NCBI GenBank assembly: GCA_020846935.1
Contig: JADLCY010000015.1
Coordinates: forward strand, 124,001 to 188,000
DNA from: Gemmatimonadaceae bacterium
Lineage (GTDB): Bacteria; Gemmatimonadota; Gemmatimonadetes; Gemmatimonadales; Gemmatimonadaceae
Reading direction: 5' to 3'
DNA length: 64,000 nucleotides
Shown: positions 43,862 to 56,332 of the stretch, piece after piece
Position numbering within the stretch: position 1 is the first letter of the stretch
Layout: each line of letters opens with the position of its first letter
Notes under the pieces: model-generated
Seen by the model: the letters and a program-made list of their open reading frames with translations, nothing else
Databases searched by the model: none
What the model was told of the DNA's origin: nothing
Position numbers and translations under genes: made by a program

Positions 43862-44995
<1,134 letters not shown>

Positions 44996-45017
44996 TCTGC
45001 CTCCCGTGACGGGACCC

Positions 45018-46364
45018 ATGCGATTTCCGCCCGACTTCCTCTGGGGTGCGTCGACGTCGGCGTACCAGGTTGAAGGCTCTCCCCTCGCCGATGGCGCGGG
45101 ACCGAGCATCTGGCATCGATTTGCTCACTCCCCCGGTCTGACGGCCAACAACGAAACCGGCGACGTCGCCTGCGATCACTACCGACGTTATGCCGACGAC
45201 GTCGCGCTGATGCGCGACCTCGGCCTCAACGCGTACCGGTTCAGCATCTCGTGGTCGCGCGTGCTCCCCGAAGGCACCGGGCGCGTGAACGAGAAGGGCC
45301 TCGACTTCTACCGTCGACTCGTCGACGCGCTGCTCGCCGCGGGCATCACGCCGAACGCCACGCTCTACCACTGGGATCTCCCGGCAGCCCTGGATGATCG
45401 CGGCGGGTGGCTCAATCGTGACATCGCCGACTGGTTCGCCGACTACGCGTCGGTGATGGGTCACGCGCTGGGTGACCGTGTGGGGATGTGGGCGACGCTC
45501 AACGAGCCGTGGGTCGTCACCGACGGCGGCTACCTCTTTGGCGCCCTCGCGCCGGGACATCGCAATCGCTTCGAGGCGCCGATCGCCTCGCATCAGTTGA
45601 TGCGGGCGCACGGTGCCGGCGTGCAGGCGTTGCGCGCCGCCGGCGCCAGGTCCGTGGGCCTCGTCGTGAACATCGAGCCCAAGTATCCGGCCACCGACTC
45701 CGCGGCCGACGCGGCCGCCGTGTCGCGCGCCGACGCGTACATGAACCGACAGTACCTCGACCCGGCGATCTGCGGCGCCTATCCGACCGAGATGCTCGAC
45801 GTCTTTGGTGACGCGTGGCCCGCGCACGCGCCCGCCGACCTTGCGCTCATCCGGCAGCCCCTCGACTTCGTGGGCATCAACTACTACACGCGCGGCGTGA
45901 TCCGCGACGAGCCTTCGGCGCACCCGGTTCGGGCCGCGTACGTGAAGCAGCCCCACGCGACCTACACCGAGACGGGCTGGGAGGTGTTCCCCGAAGCCCT
46001 CACGCGCACGTTGTGCTGGTTCCGTGATCGGTACGGCGACATTCCGCTCTACGTAACCGAAAATGGCGCGGCCTTCTACGACCCGCCGAAGGCCAGCAAC
46101 GGTCGCGTGCAGGATCCGTTGCGCGTGGCGTACTTCCGTGCACACTTGCGCGCCGTCGCCGAGGCCATGGCCGCGGGCGTGAACGTGCGCGGATACTTCG
46201 CATGGTCGCTGCTCGACAACTTCGAATGGAGCCTGGGCTACTCCAAGCGCTTCGGGATCGTCCACGTCGACTACGAAACGCTCGCCCGCACGCCCAAGGA
46301 CAGCGCGCATTTCTACCGGGACGTGATCCGCTCCCACGGCGAGGCCCTCTCGAACGGCGACTGA
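45018..46364 (+). CDS. GH1 beta-glucosidase
   Basis: A 448-residue cytoplasmic beta-glycosidase of full length. Catalytic residues are intact: acid/base Glu 163 (TLNEPW) and nucleophile Glu 348 (YVTENGA). The N-terminal signature FLWGASTSAYQVEG and the substrate-binding FAWSLLDNFEW are also clear. There is no signal peptide, so it acts on imported beta-glucosides. Its neighbours are a sugar ABC importer, a GH144-like lipoprotein and a LacI regulator, so it probably finishes the breakdown of imported glucan oligosaccharides. The ATG at 45018 starts exactly at the family's first conserved residues. Confidence 0.95.
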   Translation: MRFPPDFLWGASTSAYQVEGSPLADGAGPSIWHRFAHSPGLTANNETGDVACDHYRRYADDVALMRDLGLNAYRFSISWSRVLPEGTGRVNEKGLDFYRRLVDALLAAGITPNATLYHWDLPAALDDRGGWLNRDIADWFADYASVMGHALGDRVGMWATLNEPWVVTDGGYLFGALAPGHRNRFEAPIASHQLMRAHGAGVQALRAAGARSVGLVVNIEPKYPATDSAADAAAVSRADAYMNRQYLDPAICGAYPTEMLDVFGDAWPAHAPADLALIRQPLDFVGINYYTRGVIRDEPSAHPVRAAYVKQPHATYTETGWEVFPEALTRTLCWFRDRYGDIPLYVTENGAAFYDPPKASNGRVQDPLRVAYFRAHLRAVAEAMAAGVNVRGYFAWSLLDNFEWSLGYSKRFGIVHVDYETLARTPKDSAHFYRDVIRSHGEALSNGD

Positions 46365-46489
46365 CCAACGGCCGACCCAGCCCGGCTCAGAGCCCTCATC
46401 ACCGCACCGGCAGGCCGGCGCGCGGGTCTGTCCGCTGCTTCCGGCCGGCATCAGTGGGATGCGCGCGTTGCCACACCGTGCAGGCCGCG

Positions 46490-47308
46490 TCACTTCACGC
46501 TCCCGGCCGTGATGCCGTCCATGTAGTAGCGCTGCATCGCGAGAAACAGCACGAGCACCGGCAACACGGTGAGCACCGCACCGGCCATCATCAGCTCCGT
46601 ATCCTGCACGTGCTCGAGCGAGAGGTTGGCCAGGGCAACGGGGAGCGTGTATCGCTGATCGTTGCTCAACACGATGAGGGGCCACAGGAAGTCGTTCCAC
46701 GCGCCCATGAACGTGAACACGGCGAGCGTGAGCAGAATCGGCCGGATGACCGGCACCACGATGCTCCGGAAGATGCGCCACTCGCTCGCCCCGTCCACCC
46801 GCGCGGCATCGATCAGATCCTCCGGAATCGAGAACGCGTACTGCCTGACGAGGAAGATGCCGAAGATCGAGGCCAGCCAGGGAATCATCGCACCGGCCCA
46901 CGTATTCACCAGCCCGAGCTGCTTCACCATGAGGAACAGCGGCAGCATGGTCACCTGGCCCGGGATCACGAGCGCTCCGGCCAGCGCGCGATAGAGGCCG
47001 TCGCGGCCGCGAAAGCGGAGCTTCGCGAACGCGTAGCCTGCCATGCCGTTCAGGAGCACGGAGATGAGCGTCACGGTCGAAGCGAGGAACGCGGAGTTGG
47101 CGACGTAGCGCCACATGTCCATGCGCGTGAACAGCGTGCGGTAGTGCTCGAAGGTCACGCGTGTGGGCAGCAGCCGTGGCGGGAACGCGTTGGCTTCGCC
47201 CGTCGGCATGAGCGAGAGGGAGAGCATCCAGAGCAGCGGCGCCACGGCAAGGACGGCGATCACGCCAAGCGCCAGCAGCAGGACGATCCGGCGCCGTCGC
47301 ACGCTCAC
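46490..47308 (-). CDS. carbohydrate ABC permease, MalG/UgpE type
   Basis: A 272-residue inner-membrane permease with six helices. The EAA cytoplasmic loop reads DLIDAARVDGASEWRIFRSIVVPVIRP, and the C-terminal MQRYYMDGITAGSVK is typical of MalG-type subunits. The GTG at 47308 overlaps the stop of the MalF-type gene (GTGA). It is the last gene of the GH144-SBP-permease-permease operon and is convergent with GH1. Confidence 0.94.
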   Translation of the reverse strand: MSVRRRRIVLLLALGVIAVLAVAPLLWMLSLSLMPTGEANAFPPRLLPTRVTFEHYRTLFTRMDMWRYVANSAFLASTVTLISVLLNGMAGYAFAKLRFRGRDGLYRALAGALVIPGQVTMLPLFLMVKQLGLVNTWAGAMIPWLASIFGIFLVRQYAFSIPEDLIDAARVDGASEWRIFRSIVVPVIRPILLTLAVFTFMGAWNDFLWPLIVLSNDQRYTLPVALANLSLEHVQDTELMMAGAVLTVLPVLVLFLAMQRYYMDGITAGSVK

Positions 47309-48282
47309 GCGTCCTCGCGCATCAGGCGCCGCTGCAGCAGGGTACCGGCCAGCACGAGAGCAAAGAGCACGACGGCCACGGCCGCGGCGACGCCCATGCG
47401 CCACCAGCGAAACCCTTCCTCGTACATCAGCAGGACCAGGCTCGTCGTGCTCCGCAGCGGACCACCCTGCGTCATCACGTACGGTTCGGCGAACAGCTGG
47501 AAGTAGTTGATGAGCGTGATGACGGACACGAACCCGAGCGTCGGCCCGAGCATGGGCAGCGTCACGTGCCGAAAGCGCGTCCAGCCTTTCGCGCCGTCGA
47601 GCGATGCGGCCTCGTACAGCTCTTCGGGTATCGTCTGCAGCCCCGCCACGAAGATGACCATGTTGTATCCGAAGCTCTTCCAGATGGACATGAGCACGAT
47701 CGCCGGGAGCGCCCACCGCGCATCGCCCAGCCAGTCGACGGGACCGATGCCTAACGCGCCGAGTCCGTGGTTGACGAGGCCGTAGCGCGTGTGGAGCATG
47801 AAGCGCCAGATCACCGCCGCCGCCACGAGCGTGGTCACGTAGGGCGCAAAGTAGACCGTGCGGAAGAAGCCCCGGAACGGCGCCAGCCGTGCGTTCACGA
47901 GCAGCGCCGCGCCGAGCGACACCGCAACCGACAGCGGTCCGCCGATCAGCCCGTAGAACAGCGTGTTGCGCAGGGCGCCGAGGAAGTCCGGGTTGGTGAG
48001 CAGCTGATGGTAGTTCGCCAGCCCGATCACCCGGAGGACACCACGGTCGGCGAGCGCATATAGGTCGAAGTCGGTGAAGCTGAGCAGGAGCGCCGCGACG
48101 ACGGGCACGAAGAAGAAGACGCCGATGAGCGCGAGCGCTGGCGCAAGGAATCCCCAGGCCGCCCGCTGCCGCCCACCACCGTCCCGGCCCTTCGTCACGC
48201 CTTCGACATGGTGCGCGGCGGCGCCTTGTTGTTTCATGGCCTCGGCCACGTGCTCAGCCGTGCTCCGGACGTCTCCGCTCAT
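47305..48282 (-). CDS. carbohydrate ABC permease, MalF/UgpA type
   Basis: A 325-residue permease with an N-terminal cytoplasmic extension of about 40 residues and six helices (from AWGFLAPALALIGVFFFVPVV). The EAA loop is ELYEAASLDGAKGWTRFRHVTLPML. The ATG at 48282 overlaps the stop of the binding-protein gene (ATGA); a second ATG at 48237 is possible but loses the coupling. It pairs with the MalG-type subunit. Confidence 0.94.
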   Translation of the reverse strand: MSGDVRSTAEHVAEAMKQQGAAAHHVEGVTKGRDGGGRQRAAWGFLAPALALIGVFFFVPVVAALLLSFTDFDLYALADRGVLRVIGLANYHQLLTNPDFLGALRNTLFYGLIGGPLSVAVSLGAALLVNARLAPFRGFFRTVYFAPYVTTLVAAAVIWRFMLHTRYGLVNHGLGALGIGPVDWLGDARWALPAIVLMSIWKSFGYNMVIFVAGLQTIPEELYEAASLDGAKGWTRFRHVTLPMLGPTLGFVSVITLINYFQLFAEPYVMTQGGPLRSTTSLVLLMYEEGFRWWRMGVAAAVAVVLFALVLAGTLLQRRLMREDA

Positions 48283-49571
48283 CGTGGATCCGCCCCCTGA
48301 CCCCGCTCGGCGATCCAGCGGCGCTTCTCCAGCAACCGATCGACGTCGCGATTCATTGCCACCACCGCCTGATCGATGGTCAACACGCCCCGCACCACGC
48401 GTTCCTGGTATTCGATGACCTTGGTGGCGACCTGTTCCCACTCCGGCACGGCCGGCAGCGGCCGCAGGCGGTCGAGCTGGGTGCGAAAGGCGGCGGCGTG
48501 CGCGTTGTTCGCCAGGAGTGGGTCCTGCCAGGCGGCGTAGGTTGGCGGGAGGTTGCCGCTGATCCGGTAGAACTCGAGCTGTGTCGAAGGCTGTGAGAGC
48601 CATTCGATGAGCGCCCAGGCTTCGGCCGGATGCCGGCTGCCGCGGAACATCACCAGCGACGATCCTCCGGCCATCGAGATGCCTGACGAGTCCCCGCGGG
48701 GGCCGGGCATCGGCGCCGTTGCCCACGCGCCCCGAAGGGCAGGAGGCATGCGCGTGGCGAACTCGCCGAGCTGCCACGGGCCGGTGATGTACATCGCGAA
48801 CGTTCCGCGCGCGAACTCCTGATGTACGTTGGCGAGCTGCTGCTGGCCGGCGCGCGGCGCGAGCCCCTCGTCGAAGATGCGCGCGTAGAACGCGAACGCG
48901 TCGCGGAACGGTGCGTCGGTGAACGCACCGCGCAGGCCGCCCGGCGTCAGCAACGGCGAGCCTGCCTGCATGGCGAAGATGACCAGCGGGTTCCACTCGC
49001 TGAGCGGCAGAAAGATGCCGTACGGCGTGCCGGTGAGCTGCTTCACGCGTCGCATGGCAACGAGCCACTCGTCCCATGTGCTCGGCGGCGCGAGGATCCC
49101 GGCGCGTTCGAACAGGTCGCGACGATAGAACAGCAGCCGCGTATCGACATACCACGGCACGCCCAACGTGCGACCGGCGACCACGTTCGTGGCCCAGATA
49201 CCCGGAAAGAACGCCGCTCGCGACAGCGATCGGCTTCCGGCGATCAGCGAATCCAGCGGCGCGAGCGCGTCGAGCGTCTCGAACTCCGCGATCCACGTGT
49301 TGCCAAGCTGGGCGATGTCGGGCAGCATCTCGCCCACGTACGAGGTCAGCAGCTTTTCGTGCGCCGCCATCCACGGGATCTGCTGCACCTTGACGCGGAT
49401 GCCCGGGTGCGCGGCTTCGAAGTCGCGCATGAGTTCCTGCACGACCTCGCCTTCGCGCCCGAAGGCCCACATGGTCAACTGCACGTCACCGGATGGCGCG
49501 CGAGCGCGCCCGCACGCTGCGACGATCACCAGCGCACCGACCAGCCCGCGGCGCAGTGCGCTGCCGCTCAT
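48279..49571 (-). CDS. sugar ABC transporter substrate-binding lipoprotein
   Basis: A 430-residue family 1 solute-binding protein. Lipobox VAAC (after MSGSALRRGLVGALVIV) anchors it, probably to the inner membrane. The mature protein starts VQLTMWAFGREGEVVQELMRDF, as in MalE-type proteins, and contains YITGPWQLGEF and a C-terminal NRDVDRLLEKR. The ligand is presumably a glucan oligosaccharide, given the enzymes around it. The ATG at 49571 shares one base with the preceding stop (TGATG), so it is coupled to the GH144-like gene. Confidence 0.93.
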   Translation of the reverse strand: MSGSALRRGLVGALVIVAACGRARAPSGDVQLTMWAFGREGEVVQELMRDFEAAHPGIRVKVQQIPWMAAHEKLLTSYVGEMLPDIAQLGNTWIAEFETLDALAPLDSLIAGSRSLSRAAFFPGIWATNVVAGRTLGVPWYVDTRLLFYRRDLFERAGILAPPSTWDEWLVAMRRVKQLTGTPYGIFLPLSEWNPLVIFAMQAGSPLLTPGGLRGAFTDAPFRDAFAFYARIFDEGLAPRAGQQQLANVHQEFARGTFAMYITGPWQLGEFATRMPPALRGAWATAPMPGPRGDSSGISMAGGSSLVMFRGSRHPAEAWALIEWLSQPSTQLEFYRISGNLPPTYAAWQDPLLANNAHAAAFRTQLDRLRPLPAVPEWEQVATKVIEYQERVVRGVLTIDQAVVAMNRDVDRLLEKRRWIAERGQGADPR

Positions 49572-51025
49572 CACGCCGGCGGTGCCTGATCGATCCAACC
49601 GCCGCGGAACCCGGCTCGGCGCAGGCCGCGGACGATGTGCGGATTGGAGCGCATCACACGCCACACCAGGTCCGAGCGGTAGTTCTCGATCATAAGCACG
49701 ATCGGACCCTGGTCGATACCGAGGTAGTCGTCGTCGAACCAGCCGACACCCGGGACGATCTTCCCCGCCTGTACGCGCGTTGCCGGGTCGCGCAGCGTCG
49801 GGTTGAATGCATCGAGGAAGCCGTACTTCTGGAAGAGATGATCGCCATACGTCTGCCGCATCGTGCGCATCGCGGCGATCGCGAGGTCCGGCGCGAACGG
49901 CATCGACGACACCGCCGCCGTGGGCCCGATCGTGCCGTCGTCGCGGATCTCGGTGGCAGCGGCTCCGCGGGCCGAATACGTCCAGAAGCGAATGCCCTTG
50001 CCGTCGATCGTGAGCGAGTCGTTCACCGGCCCGTCGACGGCGGTGAGTCCCCAGACGTTGGCGGAGTAGTCACGGAACCCTCGTGGGTTGCGGATCGCGT
50101 ACGCACGTTGCGACACCACGGCTCGGCGCGAGTTCTCGAACCAGTCGATGCCGCGCGCGCGCATGTAGTCGTCGCGGATGCCGCGGAAGTCGATCCAGAC
50201 GTGCGAGAACTGGTGCCCGAAGAGCGGGGCGAAGTTCACGTGCTCCTGCCCTTCGAAGGTCAGCCAGCGATCGGTCGCGTGGAAGGCGTTCCAGGCGGCC
50301 GCGTCGATCGGGTACGTGGGCGATCCCAGCGCGAGCACGTACAGGATCATCGACTCGTCATAGCCCCGCCAGTCGTTGCGCGAATAGCCGTCTTCGGGCT
50401 TCCAGCGGTGGTTCACCAGCGGCTTGTTGGGCTGGACGAAGCTCCAGTCCACGCGCCGATAGAGCGAATCGGCGTAGGCGCGGATGGCGCGCTCGTCCGG
50501 CGTGTCCCGCGTGAAGTAGCTTTGGCAGAAGAGCACGCCACCCAGGAGCAGCGAGGTGTCGACGGTGGACAGCTCGACGTCGCGGAAGCGTGCGCCGGTC
50601 TGCATGTCGACGAAGTGATAGAAGAACCCCTTGTGCCCGATCGTGCCCGCGGCCGCTGGTCCCTGTGGTGCGGTCCAGAAGAAACGCAACGTGGTGAGCA
50701 CGCGCTGCACGGCCTGGTCGCGCGTGATCCATCCGCGTTCCACGCCGACGCCGTAGGCGGTGAGGCCAAAGCCAACCGCAGCAATGCTGGAGAAGCTCGG
50801 CGTCGGCCAGCGATCGGGCACCAGCCCGTTTGCCGGGTTCGTCGTCTCCCAGAAGAAGTCGAATGTGCGGCGCTGCACGGTGTCGAGCAGCGCGGCGTCA
50901 GCCACGGTAGCCCCTTGGTCCGCCGTGCCATGTGCCACACTCGTGCACGCCGTGACATGCAGAACGGTTCCTGCGACCGCTATGACAAGGGCGGTCCGCC
51001 TCGACGCCCCGCCCACACGGCACAC
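49571..51025 (-). CDS. glycoamylase-family lipoprotein, GH144-like glucanase
   Basis: About 484 residues. The C-terminal 430 belong to the 'glycoamylase' domain family (PF10091), which includes GH144 endo-beta-1,2-glucanases: TFDFFWETTNPANGLVPDRW, TFRFFW-like LRFFWTAP, GFFYHFVD, ELSTVDTSLLLGGVLF, NGLVP, WDFRGIRD-like WIDFRGIRDDYMRAR, and PIVLMIENYRSDLVWR at the end. It is a lipoprotein (VTAC), so it acts in the periplasm or at the surface. GTG starts at 51025 or 51016 give a normal lipoprotein signal; an ATG at 51085 would overlap the upstream gene by 35 bases. It heads the ABC operon, so its products are probably the imported oligosaccharides. Beta-1,2-glucan is my best guess for the substrate; the enzyme specificity is not proven by sequence. 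Confidence 0.88.
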   Translation of the reverse strand: MCRVGGASRRTALVIAVAGTVLHVTACTSVAHGTADQGATVADAALLDTVQRRTFDFFWETTNPANGLVPDRWPTPSFSSIAAVGFGLTAYGVGVERGWITRDQAVQRVLTTLRFFWTAPQGPAAAGTIGHKGFFYHFVDMQTGARFRDVELSTVDTSLLLGGVLFCQSYFTRDTPDERAIRAYADSLYRRVDWSFVQPNKPLVNHRWKPEDGYSRNDWRGYDESMILYVLALGSPTYPIDAAAWNAFHATDRWLTFEGQEHVNFAPLFGHQFSHVWIDFRGIRDDYMRARGIDWFENSRRAVVSQRAYAIRNPRGFRDYSANVWGLTAVDGPVNDSLTIDGKGIRFWTYSARGAAATEIRDDGTIGPTAAVSSMPFAPDLAIAAMRTMRQTYGDHLFQKYGFLDAFNPTLRDPATRVQAGKIVPGVGWFDDDYLGIDQGPIVLMIENYRSDLVWRVMRSNPHIVRGLRRAGFRGGWIDQAPPA

Positions 51026-51050
51026 GATCGCCGACCCGCAGCGACGTTCG

Positions 51051-52196
51051 CTAAGCGCACCTCGAATAGTCGTAACTCTGGCCATATCCCGCTGCAGATA
51101 GGTTCTGATCGATCTGGGCCGACTTTCCGTTGGCGTCCAATACCCACATGGCAATGAGGTAGTTGGAGTCAGAGTAGGATGTGTTGTAGAGCTTGGTGGT
51201 GAACGTCGTGGAGCTTCCAAACTGGTTGGAAGGCGAGAAGCTGTACCCACCGAGGCTCGTGACCGACCAATGGTAGGTGTACGGCGTTGTCCCGCCGGAG
51301 GCACTGGCAGTGAACGTACAGTCGGTCATCGAGCCAAGAGGGCTTGGAGATGACAGGCCAGCTGACACGCAGGTCTGCGGATACACCGTAGTAGCCGCGG
51401 TCTTGTCGTGGATACTAAGTCCGTTCCAGCTGGAGGTCGGGCTCCCCCCATTCATGATCGAGGCCGGATCGCCCGAAGCGCTATCGGGGGTGCCCGCCAC
51501 CCTGACGGCCCCGTAGCTCGACCCTGTCTCATAGAGCAAATACCAGTTTGTGTGCCTGAAGCCGATGTTGTGGCCAAGTTCGTGCGCCATCACGAGCTTC
51601 CGGGTCGACGCGTTGTTCGGCGTCAGCTGATATGCCTTGTTTACAGTGATCGTATCGCCAGGCTCACCATTCCCCGGCCCATCGGCAGGGAACGTCCCAA
51701 AGGCGGCCAAGCCTGTGGCGCCCGGCAGGGAGTCGACAACCATGGTGATGTCCCCGGGATGGCTCTCCACGAACTTGATCTCTGAGCAGTTGAGTCGGTT
51801 CCACTCTGACATGGCTTCTCGGGCCGCCGTTTGCCAGGCGGAGACTGAAGCCAACCCATTGAGGCTGACCGCGATGCTGGACACCTGACTTCCCCCCACC
51901 ACCACGTTGGTGATGTACTGCCTCTGGCCGGCCGTCTGTTTCCAGCGAACGACTTCCATCGTGCTCAGCGGCCGACGAGCAGCCAACCGAGGCACCGCCT
52001 CCTTCGAGATCCTGATGTCTCCCTCCACCATGAAATGATCCCCTCTATCCTCGATCATATCGCGCCTGAACCCCATGGCAATCAGCTACCCGCGTGGCGA
52101 CTGCTGCTCAGCAGCAATCGCAGATGGACCATCGGTTCCGCAGGCAGCAACTCCAAGAATGCCAAACACACACGCTACACCTAACGATCTGGGCAT
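51051..52196 (-). pseudogene. M57-type HEIGH metalloprotease lipoprotein interrupted by an in-frame amber codon
   Basis: A reading frame from the ATG at 52196 (GGGGAGG six bases upstream) encodes a lipoprotein signal (MPRSLGVACVFGILGVAAC) and 17 more residues, then hits TAG at 52086-52088. The same frame continues without shift: GFRRDMIEDRGDHFMVEGDIRISK, the normal N-terminal block of M57 proteases, then the zinc motif HELGHNIGFRH with a Met-turn (SIMNG) and a PKD-like C-terminal region. The internal ATG at 52076 has no ribosome-binding site and would lack the export signal. The simplest reading is a nonsense mutation (for example CAG to TAG); a sequencing error or suppression are alternatives. 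The gene is AT-richer than its neighbours (about 50% GC at 51121-51180 against 67% at 50641-50700), which suggests transfer into the sugar locus. Confidence 0.8.
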
Positions 52197-52400
52197 CGTT
52201 CCCTCCCCGTCGCGGCCCCACCCTTCATGAGTGGGGCGTGACACGGTAACGCGAGGCTCGGTGTTCATCCGTGCGTGCCCTCACCAACCCAGGAGGAGCC
52301 ACGAAGCGCGACTAGCGCACGCGCGCGAACCTGGCAGCGACGGCTACAGGACCTCCAAAACAACGCAGATGTTCAGCTCGCCGAGCCGACGCCAGCAGCG

Positions 52401-55307
52401 TCACCAGTCAACCTGCACTCCTAGCTGGAACCGCCGACCATCCGTCACGACTCGATCAGGGACACCGAAGTTTGGGTTTGGCGCTTGTCCAGCCTGATTG
52501 ATCTGCTGTGTTCCGAAGCCGTAGTTCACAACGTTGAAGGCATTGAACAGGTCGGCAGTGACACCGACACGGTTGCCGCGCAACGGCGGGAAGAACTTCG
52601 CGAGACGCAGATCGGTGTTGTTGAATCCCCAATGGCCAGCACCGAGGAAGCTCGACTTCCACTTCTCATCGATGCTGCCGCTGCCCGGGATGAAAAGGCA
52701 GCGGTTCTGCGTTGCCTGGTTGGTGCAATCGTTGATACTGAACTTGTCACCCGAGCCGAGGTTGACGATTCCACTGAACTGCGTGCCGAACACCCATGGC
52801 AGGTCCATGATGAAGTTGCCGACGATGGTGTGCCGCTGGTTCCGGCTGGTGCCCCAGCGCGGATAGTCATTGACCGTGTTGAAGTCGAGCGAGAAGAGGT
52901 CACCGCCGAGTTGCTGGGCCTTGGCGAGCGTGTACGTCACGCCACCGCCCACCGCAAACGCCTTGGGGCCCTGCGACCGGTACGGCTTTTCCAGCTGGAA
53001 GATCCACGCATCGTACCACGTGCGCAGGGCGCTGCTCGAGATGAACGCGTTCGCGAATCCCGGCACCGGGTCGCAGCACGTGCCGTTCGCGCGGCGGTTC
53101 GCCCGGATCCACGTGAAGCCGTCGTAGCCGCGGACACCGGTGAAGGTCACCGAACCGACGACGTTGCGCCGTGCATGTCGCACCCCGCCCGTCCACATGT
53201 GCGAATAGGGCGGCTTGGCGTTGTTGTCCATGAGGAACACTTCAGGCAGCGGACGGTTTGGCGAGTTGGCCAGCTGGTCGAGCGACGCCTTCGAGAGGTA
53301 GCTCGGGTTCCAGACGATCGTCGGCGCGCCATTGCGCGGCAGCCCGTCGGTCGAGAACTGGTACGTGAGTACCTGGTACTGGAGCCGGAACTTCTCGTCC
53401 AGCCCGTTGTTGTAATTGCTGCGGTCGTAGTACACACCGAAGGCGCCGAACAGGGTCGTCTGGCGTGCCGGGTCCACCGCGAAGTTGAAGCCCACGCGCG
53501 GCTGGAACGCCTTCATGAACGCCGGCCGATCGTCACCGTCGGTGAAGAAGTTCGCCGGCAGGCGCGAGCCCAGCGCCGCGCGCACGTTCGCCGGCGTCAC
53601 GTAGTCGTTGTTGAGCATATCCGACTCATAGTCCCAGCGCAGCCCGAGGTTGAGCGTGAGCCGGTCGGTCGGGCTCCAGTCGTCCTGTGCGTAGGCGCCG
53701 ATCTGCGTGTTGCTGGTGTTCATGTTCGGGTTGCCGAATCCATACCTCGCCTGGAACGGAAAGGCGAAGTTCTCGGTCGCCCGGAACTCGAACAACGGAT
53801 TGCCGTTGAAGAACTTCTGCACGTCGTACTGATTGGCGTCGAAGTTCGCGCCCACCTTGATGACGTGCGAACCACCCAGGGTGAACCCCGACCAGGTGAG
53901 GTCGTTGCGGAACGAGAGGCGCCGCTGGTCGAAGTCCTGATAGGAGTCGCGCCCTCCCACCCGGCCGATGCCCTGGTAGTTCAGGCCGATTGTCTCATCG
54001 TCGCGCGGCACCGGGTTCCACGTCGAACCCTGCCACGAGATCATGGCCTCGTTCAGGCGGTTCCCCGAGGCGAACGTGTGCTTGAGGATCGCCGTGTTCA
54101 CATCGACCTTCACGTTTTCCGCAGCCTCGTACGACGTCTGGCCGCCGAACCCGCGGATGTCGGTCTCGTGCCGGAGGTTGTAGCTGAACTCGAACGAGCT
54201 CTTCGGGCTTTGCACCCAGTTGACCTTGGCGATGCCGAGGTTCGACCGGAACGGTGAGACGAAGAACCCGTCCCTGCCGCTGAAGACGTTGGGATACTGC
54301 GACGCCTGCGCGCCGAACGTCACGATGTTCGAGCGGTCCTGGTAGTTGCCTTCCCAGGCGCCAAAGAAGAACAACTTGTCCTTCACGATCGGGCCGCCGA
54401 TCGAGAGCGCGGTCTGGTCGCGCCGGTAGTCGGAGATGTTGAAGGTCTGCCCGAGCGAATCGGCGCGCTTCTTTGCTCTGCGCTGGAACTCGTCGAGCGC
54501 GATGAGCCCCTTGGTCTGGCCGGCGTACAAGGCACTGCCCCGCCACTCGTTGGTACCGGACTTGGTCGTCGCGGTGATGATCGCGCTGGACGCCTTCTGG
54601 TACTCCGCCTTGTAGTTGTTGGTCAGGACCCGGAACTCCTGCACCGCGACCTGCGGGAACGGATTCCCGCGGGAGGCCTCCTGTCCATTCAGGCCGCTGG
54701 GCAGCACGTCCGACTTGTAGCTCGCGCCGTCGATGAACACGTTGATGTTCTGCGCGGGGAGCGCGCCGGCCGCAAACGACTTGGACGTCCCTTCGCGACG
54801 CCCGCCGATGATGCGCACCCCCGGTGCCAGCTGCGCCAGAGCGAGGAAGTTGCGATCGGTGCTCGGCAGCGCCGCGATCTGCTCGGCGGACACGTTGGTC
54901 GCCACTTCCGACGTGCGCTCGTCGCGCGTCGATGCCGCCTGCACGGCCACCGCGGCCAGCTGCGTCGCCACCGCCCGGAGGTCGAAGTCCATGCTCAGCG
55001 CCTCGCCGATCTGTACCCGCTGACGGCGCGTCTGCGGCTCCACGCCGATGCGACGCGCCGTCACGTCGTAGTCGCCCGGCACGAGGCCGACGAGAGCGTA
55101 GTAGCCATTTTCGCTGGTCGTCGCGAGGCGAAGGGCGCCCGTCGCGATGTTGCGCGCCTGCAAGGTGGCGCCGGCGACCGGGGCACCGTTGTCACCGCGG
55201 ACGTATCCGCGGATCGAACCCGTCGTGGTCTGCGCGTCGGCGGACGCCGCCAGACCCAGGGTCGCCGCGAGGGCGACCCACGTGCCTAACGACTTGATGA
55301 GACTCAT
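52401..55307 (-). CDS. Oar-like TonB-dependent receptor of the sugar locus
   Basis: A 968-residue outer-membrane receptor. Signal peptide cleavage is ADA|Q near residue 26. It is followed by a CarboxypepD_reg-like domain (about 30-110: GSIRGYVRGDNGAPVAGATL), a plug (about 125-245: NVFIDGASYKSD) and a barrel ending in an aromatic strand (RRFQLGVQVDW). Its ATG at 55307 overlaps the lacI stop (ATGA), with AGGAG eight bases upstream, so it is co-translated with the regulator. By context it imports the glucan or oligosaccharide processed by the GH144- and GH1-type enzymes. No SusD-like partner is present, as usual for Oar-type receptors. Confidence 0.9.
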   Translation of the reverse strand: MSLIKSLGTWVALAATLGLAASADAQTTTGSIRGYVRGDNGAPVAGATLQARNIATGALRLATTSENGYYALVGLVPGDYDVTARRIGVEPQTRRQRVQIGEALSMDFDLRAVATQLAAVAVQAASTRDERTSEVATNVSAEQIAALPSTDRNFLALAQLAPGVRIIGGRREGTSKSFAAGALPAQNINVFIDGASYKSDVLPSGLNGQEASRGNPFPQVAVQEFRVLTNNYKAEYQKASSAIITATTKSGTNEWRGSALYAGQTKGLIALDEFQRRAKKRADSLGQTFNISDYRRDQTALSIGGPIVKDKLFFFGAWEGNYQDRSNIVTFGAQASQYPNVFSGRDGFFVSPFRSNLGIAKVNWVQSPKSSFEFSYNLRHETDIRGFGGQTSYEAAENVKVDVNTAILKHTFASGNRLNEAMISWQGSTWNPVPRDDETIGLNYQGIGRVGGRDSYQDFDQRRLSFRNDLTWSGFTLGGSHVIKVGANFDANQYDVQKFFNGNPLFEFRATENFAFPFQARYGFGNPNMNTSNTQIGAYAQDDWSPTDRLTLNLGLRWDYESDMLNNDYVTPANVRAALGSRLPANFFTDGDDRPAFMKAFQPRVGFNFAVDPARQTTLFGAFGVYYDRSNYNNGLDEKFRLQYQVLTYQFSTDGLPRNGAPTIVWNPSYLSKASLDQLANSPNRPLPEVFLMDNNAKPPYSHMWTGGVRHARRNVVGSVTFTGVRGYDGFTWIRANRRANGTCCDPVPGFANAFISSSALRTWYDAWIFQLEKPYRSQGPKAFAVGGGVTYTLAKAQQLGGDLFSLDFNTVNDYPRWGTSRNQRHTIVGNFIMDLPWVFGTQFSGIVNLGSGDKFSINDCTNQATQNRCLFIPGSGSIDEKWKSSFLGAGHWGFNNTDLRLAKFFPPLRGNRVGVTADLFNAFNVVNYGFGTQQINQAGQAPNPNFGVPDRVVTDGRRFQLGVQVDW

Positions 55308-56332
55308 GTGCTGCGTCTCCTGTGGAGGGAGGTGGGTGGAGGTCCTGACGAACCGCGTACCACGAGCCGCGTCGGGATGCGCTCGACTCGTGCTTCCATC
55401 GGTTCCGGTCCGGCGAGCGCGCGGATCATGCGCGTCGCCGCCCGCTCGCCCATCTCGGCGATCGGGACGTGCACCGACGTGAGCGTGGGGTGGACGTAGC
55501 GCGCCACCGGGATGTCGTCGAAGCCGATCACGCTGATGTCCTCGGGGACGCGCAGACGACCTTCGCGGAGCGCACCCATGACGCCGAGCGCCATGGCATC
55601 GTTGGCCGCGAACACCGCGGTCGGGCGTGGGGACAGGCGCAGCAGCAACTCGCCGGCGCGATACCCCGCGGCCTCGGTGAAGTCACCGTCGATCTCAGGC
55701 CCGTCGGCACGCGGGCAGCCGGCCGCCTTCATGGCCGCGCGAAACCCCTTGAGGCGCTCGGCGGCGTCGACGTTGCCCACCGCCCCGGTGATGTGCGCGA
55801 TGCGACGGTGCCCGAGCCCCACCAGGTATCGCACCACTTCCCGCGCGCCGCTCGCGTTGTCGATGTCGATCACCGGGTAGCGCGTCCCGCGCACGCCACA
55901 ACTCAGCAATGCGACCGGCACCGACGTGGGGAAGTTTTCGACCAGGGTCTCGCCGTCGACGTGCGGCGACATGATGATGAGACCGTCCACCCGGCCACGC
56001 ATCGCCCGGATGGCACTGCGGATCTCGGTCTTGCCGCCGTGTGCGCTGGCGAACAGCAGGTGATAGCCCTGCCCCTGGGCCGCCAGCTGAATCCCCCGGA
56101 TCAGTTCGGAGAAGAACTCTCCATAGAGATCCGGGAGGAGCACGCCGAGGGTGTTGGTCTTGGCCGTGATGAGGGAGCGCGCGCCGACGTGGGGCACGTA
56201 GCGGAGCGCGCTGGCGGCGTCGTGGATGCGGCGGGCCGCGGACGCAGACACTGGCCCGGAGCCGTTCATCACGCGGGACACGGTGGCCACCGAGACCCCG
56301 GCCTTCCTGGCGACGTCGCGAATGGTGGTCAC
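55304..56332 (-). CDS. LacI-family transcriptional regulator
   Basis: A 342-residue repressor: N-terminal helix-turn-helix TIRDVARKAGVSVATVSRVMNG (split: TIRDVARKAGVS, VATVSRVMNG), the hinge helix region (SASAARRIHDAASALRYVPH), and a periplasmic-binding-protein-like sugar domain (about 60-330: LGVLLPDLYGEFFSELIRGI, FDDIPVARYVHPTLTSV). It is first in an operon with the TonB receptor. A perfect LacI-type palindrome at 56378-56391 lies 46 bases upstream of its ATG, and a second at 44965-44978 covers the GH1/ABC starts. It therefore probably controls itself and the whole sugar locus in response to an imported sugar. Confidence 0.95.
   Translation of the reverse strand: MTTIRDVARKAGVSVATVSRVMNGSGPVSASAARRIHDAASALRYVPHVGARSLITAKTNTLGVLLPDLYGEFFSELIRGIQLAAQGQGYHLLFASAHGGKTEIRSAIRAMRGRVDGLIIMSPHVDGETLVENFPTSVPVALLSCGVRGTRYPVIDIDNASGAREVVRYLVGLGHRRIAHITGAVGNVDAAERLKGFRAAMKAAGCPRADGPEIDGDFTEAAGYRAGELLLRLSPRPTAVFAANDAMALGVMGALREGRLRVPEDISVIGFDDIPVARYVHPTLTSVHVPIAEMGERAATRMIRALAGPEPMEARVERIPTRLVVRGSSGPPPTSLHRRRST

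Follow-up and report, generated by a model that had tools for sequence, protein, structure and literature searches.

Here we describe a gene for a metalloprotease of peptidase family M57 in a genome of the Gemmatimonadaceae. The gene was probably acquired as a lipoprotein gene and recently inactivated by one nonsense codon, a reading to which we assign a probability of about 0.72. It lies on the minus strand of the window, which is the whole stretch of 64,000 nucleotides that was analysed (contig JADLCY010000015.1, positions 124,001 to 188,000), and occupies positions 52196-51051. An earlier note, made from the letters alone, had placed the gene correctly at these coordinates; it described a secreted M57 protease interrupted by a single in-frame TAG, and proposed that the gene was freshly inactivated or that the amber codon was read through. 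No title dealing with this M57 gene was found in the literature at title level.

Translation of the frame from 52196 to 51051 gives an ATG, a leader of 36 codons (52089-52196, minus strand), a TAG and then 344 codons in the same frame; over its 382 codons the single TAG is the sole lesion seen. A ribosome-binding-site-like sequence, GGGGAGGG (52201-52208, minus strand), was read 4 bases before the ATG at 52196. The leader reads MPRSLGVACVFGILGVAACG...SPRG up to the TAG and contains a lipobox-like VAA|C followed by a short linker, which by the lipobox motif rule we take to be of the lipoprotein type. The signal region and ribosome-binding site of the earlier note are thus borne out, and its freely secreted product is not: judged by this motif, a lipoprotein would result. 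The minus strand also carries a short hairpin, GCCCCAC...GTGGGGC (52215-52237), directly ahead of the ribosome-binding-site-like sequence. The predicted RNA fold of the start region was not notable (z -1.5).

The TAG itself (52086-52088, minus strand) separates the leader from the first conserved M57 block, as had been claimed, and beyond it the frame opens with LIAMGFRRDMIED... and runs without a further stop (51051-52085, minus strand) to a terminal TAG at 51053-51051. An internal ATG (52074-52076, minus strand) lies 9 bases after the interrupting TAG and is a possible reinitiation start. The downstream frame belongs to PF12388, with 69.5 bits against a Pfam gathering cut-off of 21, and is predicted from its sequence to encode a peptidase; the Peptidase_M57 domain (profile positions 20-212) covers 51381-51941 on the minus strand. 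The zinc-binding motif HExxHxxGxxH is intact as HELGHNIGFRH (51552-51584, minus strand), in agreement with what was first noticed, and its H, E, G, H, G and H are invariant in a 7-row alignment. A profile built from homologues together with the window's own enzyme part matched the window unbroken across the TAG (positions 9-355 of 372). Searching profiles of solved structures returned weak metalloprotease matches, the best being karilysin (E 1.2e-6), and the structure predicted for the 341-residue frame had a mean pLDDT of 39.6 and was left unused. An 18-base near-repeat (15/18) joins window positions 51144-51161 and 52071-52088, the second copy spanning the internal ATG as well as the TAG; at this length, a match in two copies is probably due to chance. 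Promoter, terminator and repeat scans of the locus gave nothing convincing, and Rfam had no match in window 50800-52700.

Chance was assessed from base composition. An open frame of 341 codons would arise with a probability of approximately 7e-6, and 36 open codons upstream of a stop would be common (0.29). A 464-kb sample of the genome (20 stretches of 20 kb and the window) contains 4289 stops that are followed by 60 or more open codons. Only one of these, the TAG at 52088-52086, is preceded in frame, within 60 codons, by a ribosome-binding-site-like sequence, a start and a lipoprotein-like leader, under a criterion written after the case had been seen. It is the leader that provides the specific evidence.

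The same arrangement is found in relatives of the gene. All seven intact homologues from the phylum carry a leader of the same type and an MGF...VEGD-like block in one frame with the protease, and M57-like proteins of the Bacteroidota and Myxococcota (Pontibacter, Chitinophaga and others) likewise have leader and M57 domain in one frame. In the window this one-frame architecture is broken by the TAG which, taking the base call as given, is a disabling lesion relative to the homologues, as in a pseudogene. Homologues lacking the upstream signal region, which the earlier note had named as evidence that would count against it, were not seen among the seven. At least 33 more distant loci, none of them close and about half of them serralysin-like Pseudomonas proteins by eye, were recovered by a scan of genome contigs; in all of these, 180 or more codons stand open ahead of the zinc motif. 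The lipobox pattern fired in 10 of these loci; by eye, other M57-like ones show a leader and the serralysin-like Pseudomonas loci show none.

The M57 gene is surrounded by a sugar-uptake cluster (window 43862-56332). Its upstream neighbour is an outer-membrane beta-barrel receptor with PF13620 (carboxypeptidase-regulatory-like domain) and PF25183 matches (52401-55307, minus strand), and its downstream neighbour a glycoamylase, PF10091 (49571-51058, minus strand; open frame as used, with an approximate start). On the strand of the M57 gene a LacI-type regulator is encoded upstream, and the genes downstream encode a binding protein, two permeases and an ABC ATPase; a family 1 glycosyl hydrolase stands among them on the opposite strand. 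Glycoamylase homologues (46-64% identity) were found at 19 loci in 18 genomes, and at 14 of the 19 a receptor homologue (33-45% identity) adjoins the glycoamylase with M57 absent. None of the 19 loci had an M57 gene beside the glycoamylase within the fetched flanks (approximately 1.5 kb, some shorter), nor did the fetched flanks of the 11 other M57 loci, including one cut by a contig end, contain the receptor or the glycoamylase. Matches to M57 occur in 3 of the 179 genomes of the family, the window's own included, and its own genome has no second copy.

Because the receptor and glycoamylase genes adjoin without M57 in 14 of the 19 relatives' loci, the M57 gene looks like a late arrival between them. 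Its sporadic distribution and its GC3 of 0.72, compared with 0.88 for the receptor and 0.84 for the binding-protein gene, likewise fit a late insertion. In the 24-row tree the family's three M57 proteins do not group together, with weak branch support. No M57 match was found in the four other members of the genus, although two of these genomes have a completeness of just 74% and 82%; the four lack the glycoamylase too, which limits what they can say about a late insertion.

We suggest the following course of events. An M57 lipoprotein gene would have been gained horizontally by the lineage and placed between the receptor and glycoamylase genes, and later a single nonsense codon, the TAG at 52088-52086, would have disabled it. 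Ribosomes starting at the ATG at 52196 would then yield only the 36-residue leader before the stop, and the protease part, should any still be made, would no longer leave the cytoplasm.

The proposal that the gene is freshly inactivated has held up as the best-supported reading, with one lesion, the zinc motif kept, an ordinary branch, no second M57 gene in the genome and leader and enzyme in one frame in all seven intact homologues of the phylum. The stop, the intact remainder, the sporadic distribution and the adjoining of the two neighbours elsewhere are observed; the horizontal gain, the loss of function and the recency are what we infer. In the frame, 124 of 3420 single-base changes (approximately 3.6%) would create a stop, and only one stop is present; the end branch of the window protein, 0.55 against a median of 0.47 in the same tree, is not long. 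Both observations fit a recent event, and with kin of about 45% identity or less neither dates the lesion. The closest relative of the window protein is only about 45% identical, which places the ancestral frame and any relaxation of selection beyond measurement. Several observations count against a gain followed by inactivation. The intact zinc motif and the 341 open codons are what a functional gene would show; the composition of the leader is atypical (GC3 0.42, coding score -0.15); no repeats were found flanking the M57 insert; and the genus relatives are without the glycoamylase.

The readings rank as follows: an inactivated gene, then a base-call or assembly error, then reinitiation and last a useful rate of read-through. 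That the TAG is an error, and the gene an intact and ordinary M57 lipoprotein gene, we consider unlikely. One stop as the only lesion in 382 codons, with domain and zinc motif intact, is what such an error would leave; set against this, the genome is assembled in 15 contigs with an estimated completeness of 100%. A composition survey for stop-interrupted genes in the same 464-kb sample of the genome flagged 13 stops, all of which were by eye adjacent gene pairs in the same frame, and it thus gave no sign that broken genes are in excess. The survey was trained on the 219 longest open frames (211 with a stop), which are not verified genes, and it misses the target TAG itself, and thus has little power for short leaders.

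Translation could also stop at the TAG and restart at the ATG at 52076, to give an M57 protein that stays in the cytoplasm, unexported, and keeps some role. The position of this ATG, just past the TAG where the conserved MGF block begins and with 341 open codons behind it, would suit reinitiation, but by eye no ribosome-binding-site-like sequence precedes it, and the lipoprotein-type leaders of the seven intact phylum homologues give an address that a cytoplasmic form would lack. We regard this as distinctly improbable.

Signs of amber decoding were looked for in the genome. The Rfam model RF00005 found 48 tRNA genes, and ARAGORN, run on these loci, assigned ordinary anticodons to all 48, so the amber suppressor tRNA which the earlier note had suggested looking for was not found among them. 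A search with an amber-anticodon pattern gave 25 matches compared with 20 in a reversed control; four of the 25 fall within known tRNA genes but not at the anticodon, and for one remaining match, on contig C8, ARAGORN and Rfam gave nothing. Release factor 1 is present (468.8 bits, cut-off 423.25), and TAG is a normal terminator, ending 70 of the 211 long frames of the 464-kb sample as well as the M57 gene itself; neither sign of amber recoding, loss of release factor 1 or of TAG as a usual stop, was therefore found. Amber suppression is unlikely, and the suggestion of read-through finds no support in these results, though ordinary tRNAs might still permit it at a low level. As for other TAG-interrupted genes, the survey, insensitive as it is, revealed none in 464 kb, and one came to light in another family, namely the M57 gene at L114. 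Useful levels of read-through at the amber codon, giving a little full-length lipoprotein protease, seem highly improbable: the intact downstream frame and the second TAG-interrupted M57 gene, which speak for it, are outweighed by the ordinary tRNA set, the release factor, the common use of TAG as a stop and the different positions of the two TAGs, one variable (window) and one an otherwise invariant Trp (L114).

The interrupted gene of the window was compared with other M57 genes of the phylum. The searches covered the order (288 genomes), one family of the class (21), the class (394) and the phylum (395); the class and phylum sets are samples, and the sets overlap. Eleven M57 genes in 10 genomes had a catalytic part that could be judged, of which seven are open and four broken, each by its own lesion. 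All three M57 genes of the window's family are broken: besides the window gene, L129:1257-2300 (genome G061) has a frameshift that leaves the leader block and the catalytic domain in different frames, and L130:1490-2142 (genome G138) has a deletion, its first half missing and its start leading into another frame. The fourth, L114:437-1522 (minus strand, genome G435), belongs to another family and has an in-frame TAG where aligned homologues have an invariant Trp. These three relatives' genes come from draft assemblies of 230-750 contigs and 61-88% completeness, in which assembly errors are possible. Left out of the 11 were L131, which runs into a contig end; L116 and L177, which by eye are HExxH proteases of other kinds; L115, L120, L121 and L123, which cover the C-terminal region only; weaker matches; and the distant loci of the contig scan.

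As a rough control, glycoamylase homologues were broken within their conserved domain at none of 19 loci, the sole stop in the alignment (L173) lying where the match begins, in an unconserved part; this control omits seven weaker rows, among them a partial one on contig 48 of G011 that could be a truncated gene. Fisher tests, all made after the fact, gave p 0.012 for 4/11 broken M57 genes against 0/19 glycoamylase genes, and p 0.047 against 1/19 with the L173 stop counted. Without the window gene (3/10) the values were p 0.033 and p 0.105, respectively, and a further test with 3/11 broken gave 0.041. The excess of broken M57 genes among the relatives is only suggestive, because the question was put after the fact and, apart from the window gene, every broken gene lies in a draft assembly. 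That the M57 lipoproteins of this phylum have been repeatedly gained and repeatedly disabled, often before or early in the enzyme part, is a tentative idea that we hold to be rather doubtful. If it were true, recurrent disabling would point to a protease that is costly when exported, or useful only for a time, and if the breakage persists in better genomes it would offer a modest, testable instance of one exported protease being lost again and again.

On its own, the window gene is an ordinary, routine example of accessory gene decay. With its start called at the internal ATG, the gene would presumably be annotated as a complete cytoplasmic protease, which would mask a broken lipoprotein gene.

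Among known systems, the serralysin-type metalloproteases (NCBIfam NF035945) share weak similarity around the zinc site with the window protein, which scores 19.7 bits against a curated cut-off of 500, and an identity as a serralysin was rejected on this score. Peptidase family M57 (PF12388) shares with it the HExxHxxGxxH motif, the N-terminal MGF/VEGD block and, in homologues, the lipoprotein-type leader; the window copy differs by the in-frame TAG between leader and domain. A further comparison is with accessory genes that bacteria acquired sporadically and that have become pseudogenes, the setting of PMC2275313. The window gene differs from these in that its recency is a deduction, with no closely related intact strain for comparison, and it resembles them in its patchy distribution, in its single inactivating lesion and in the other M57 members being broken in other ways.
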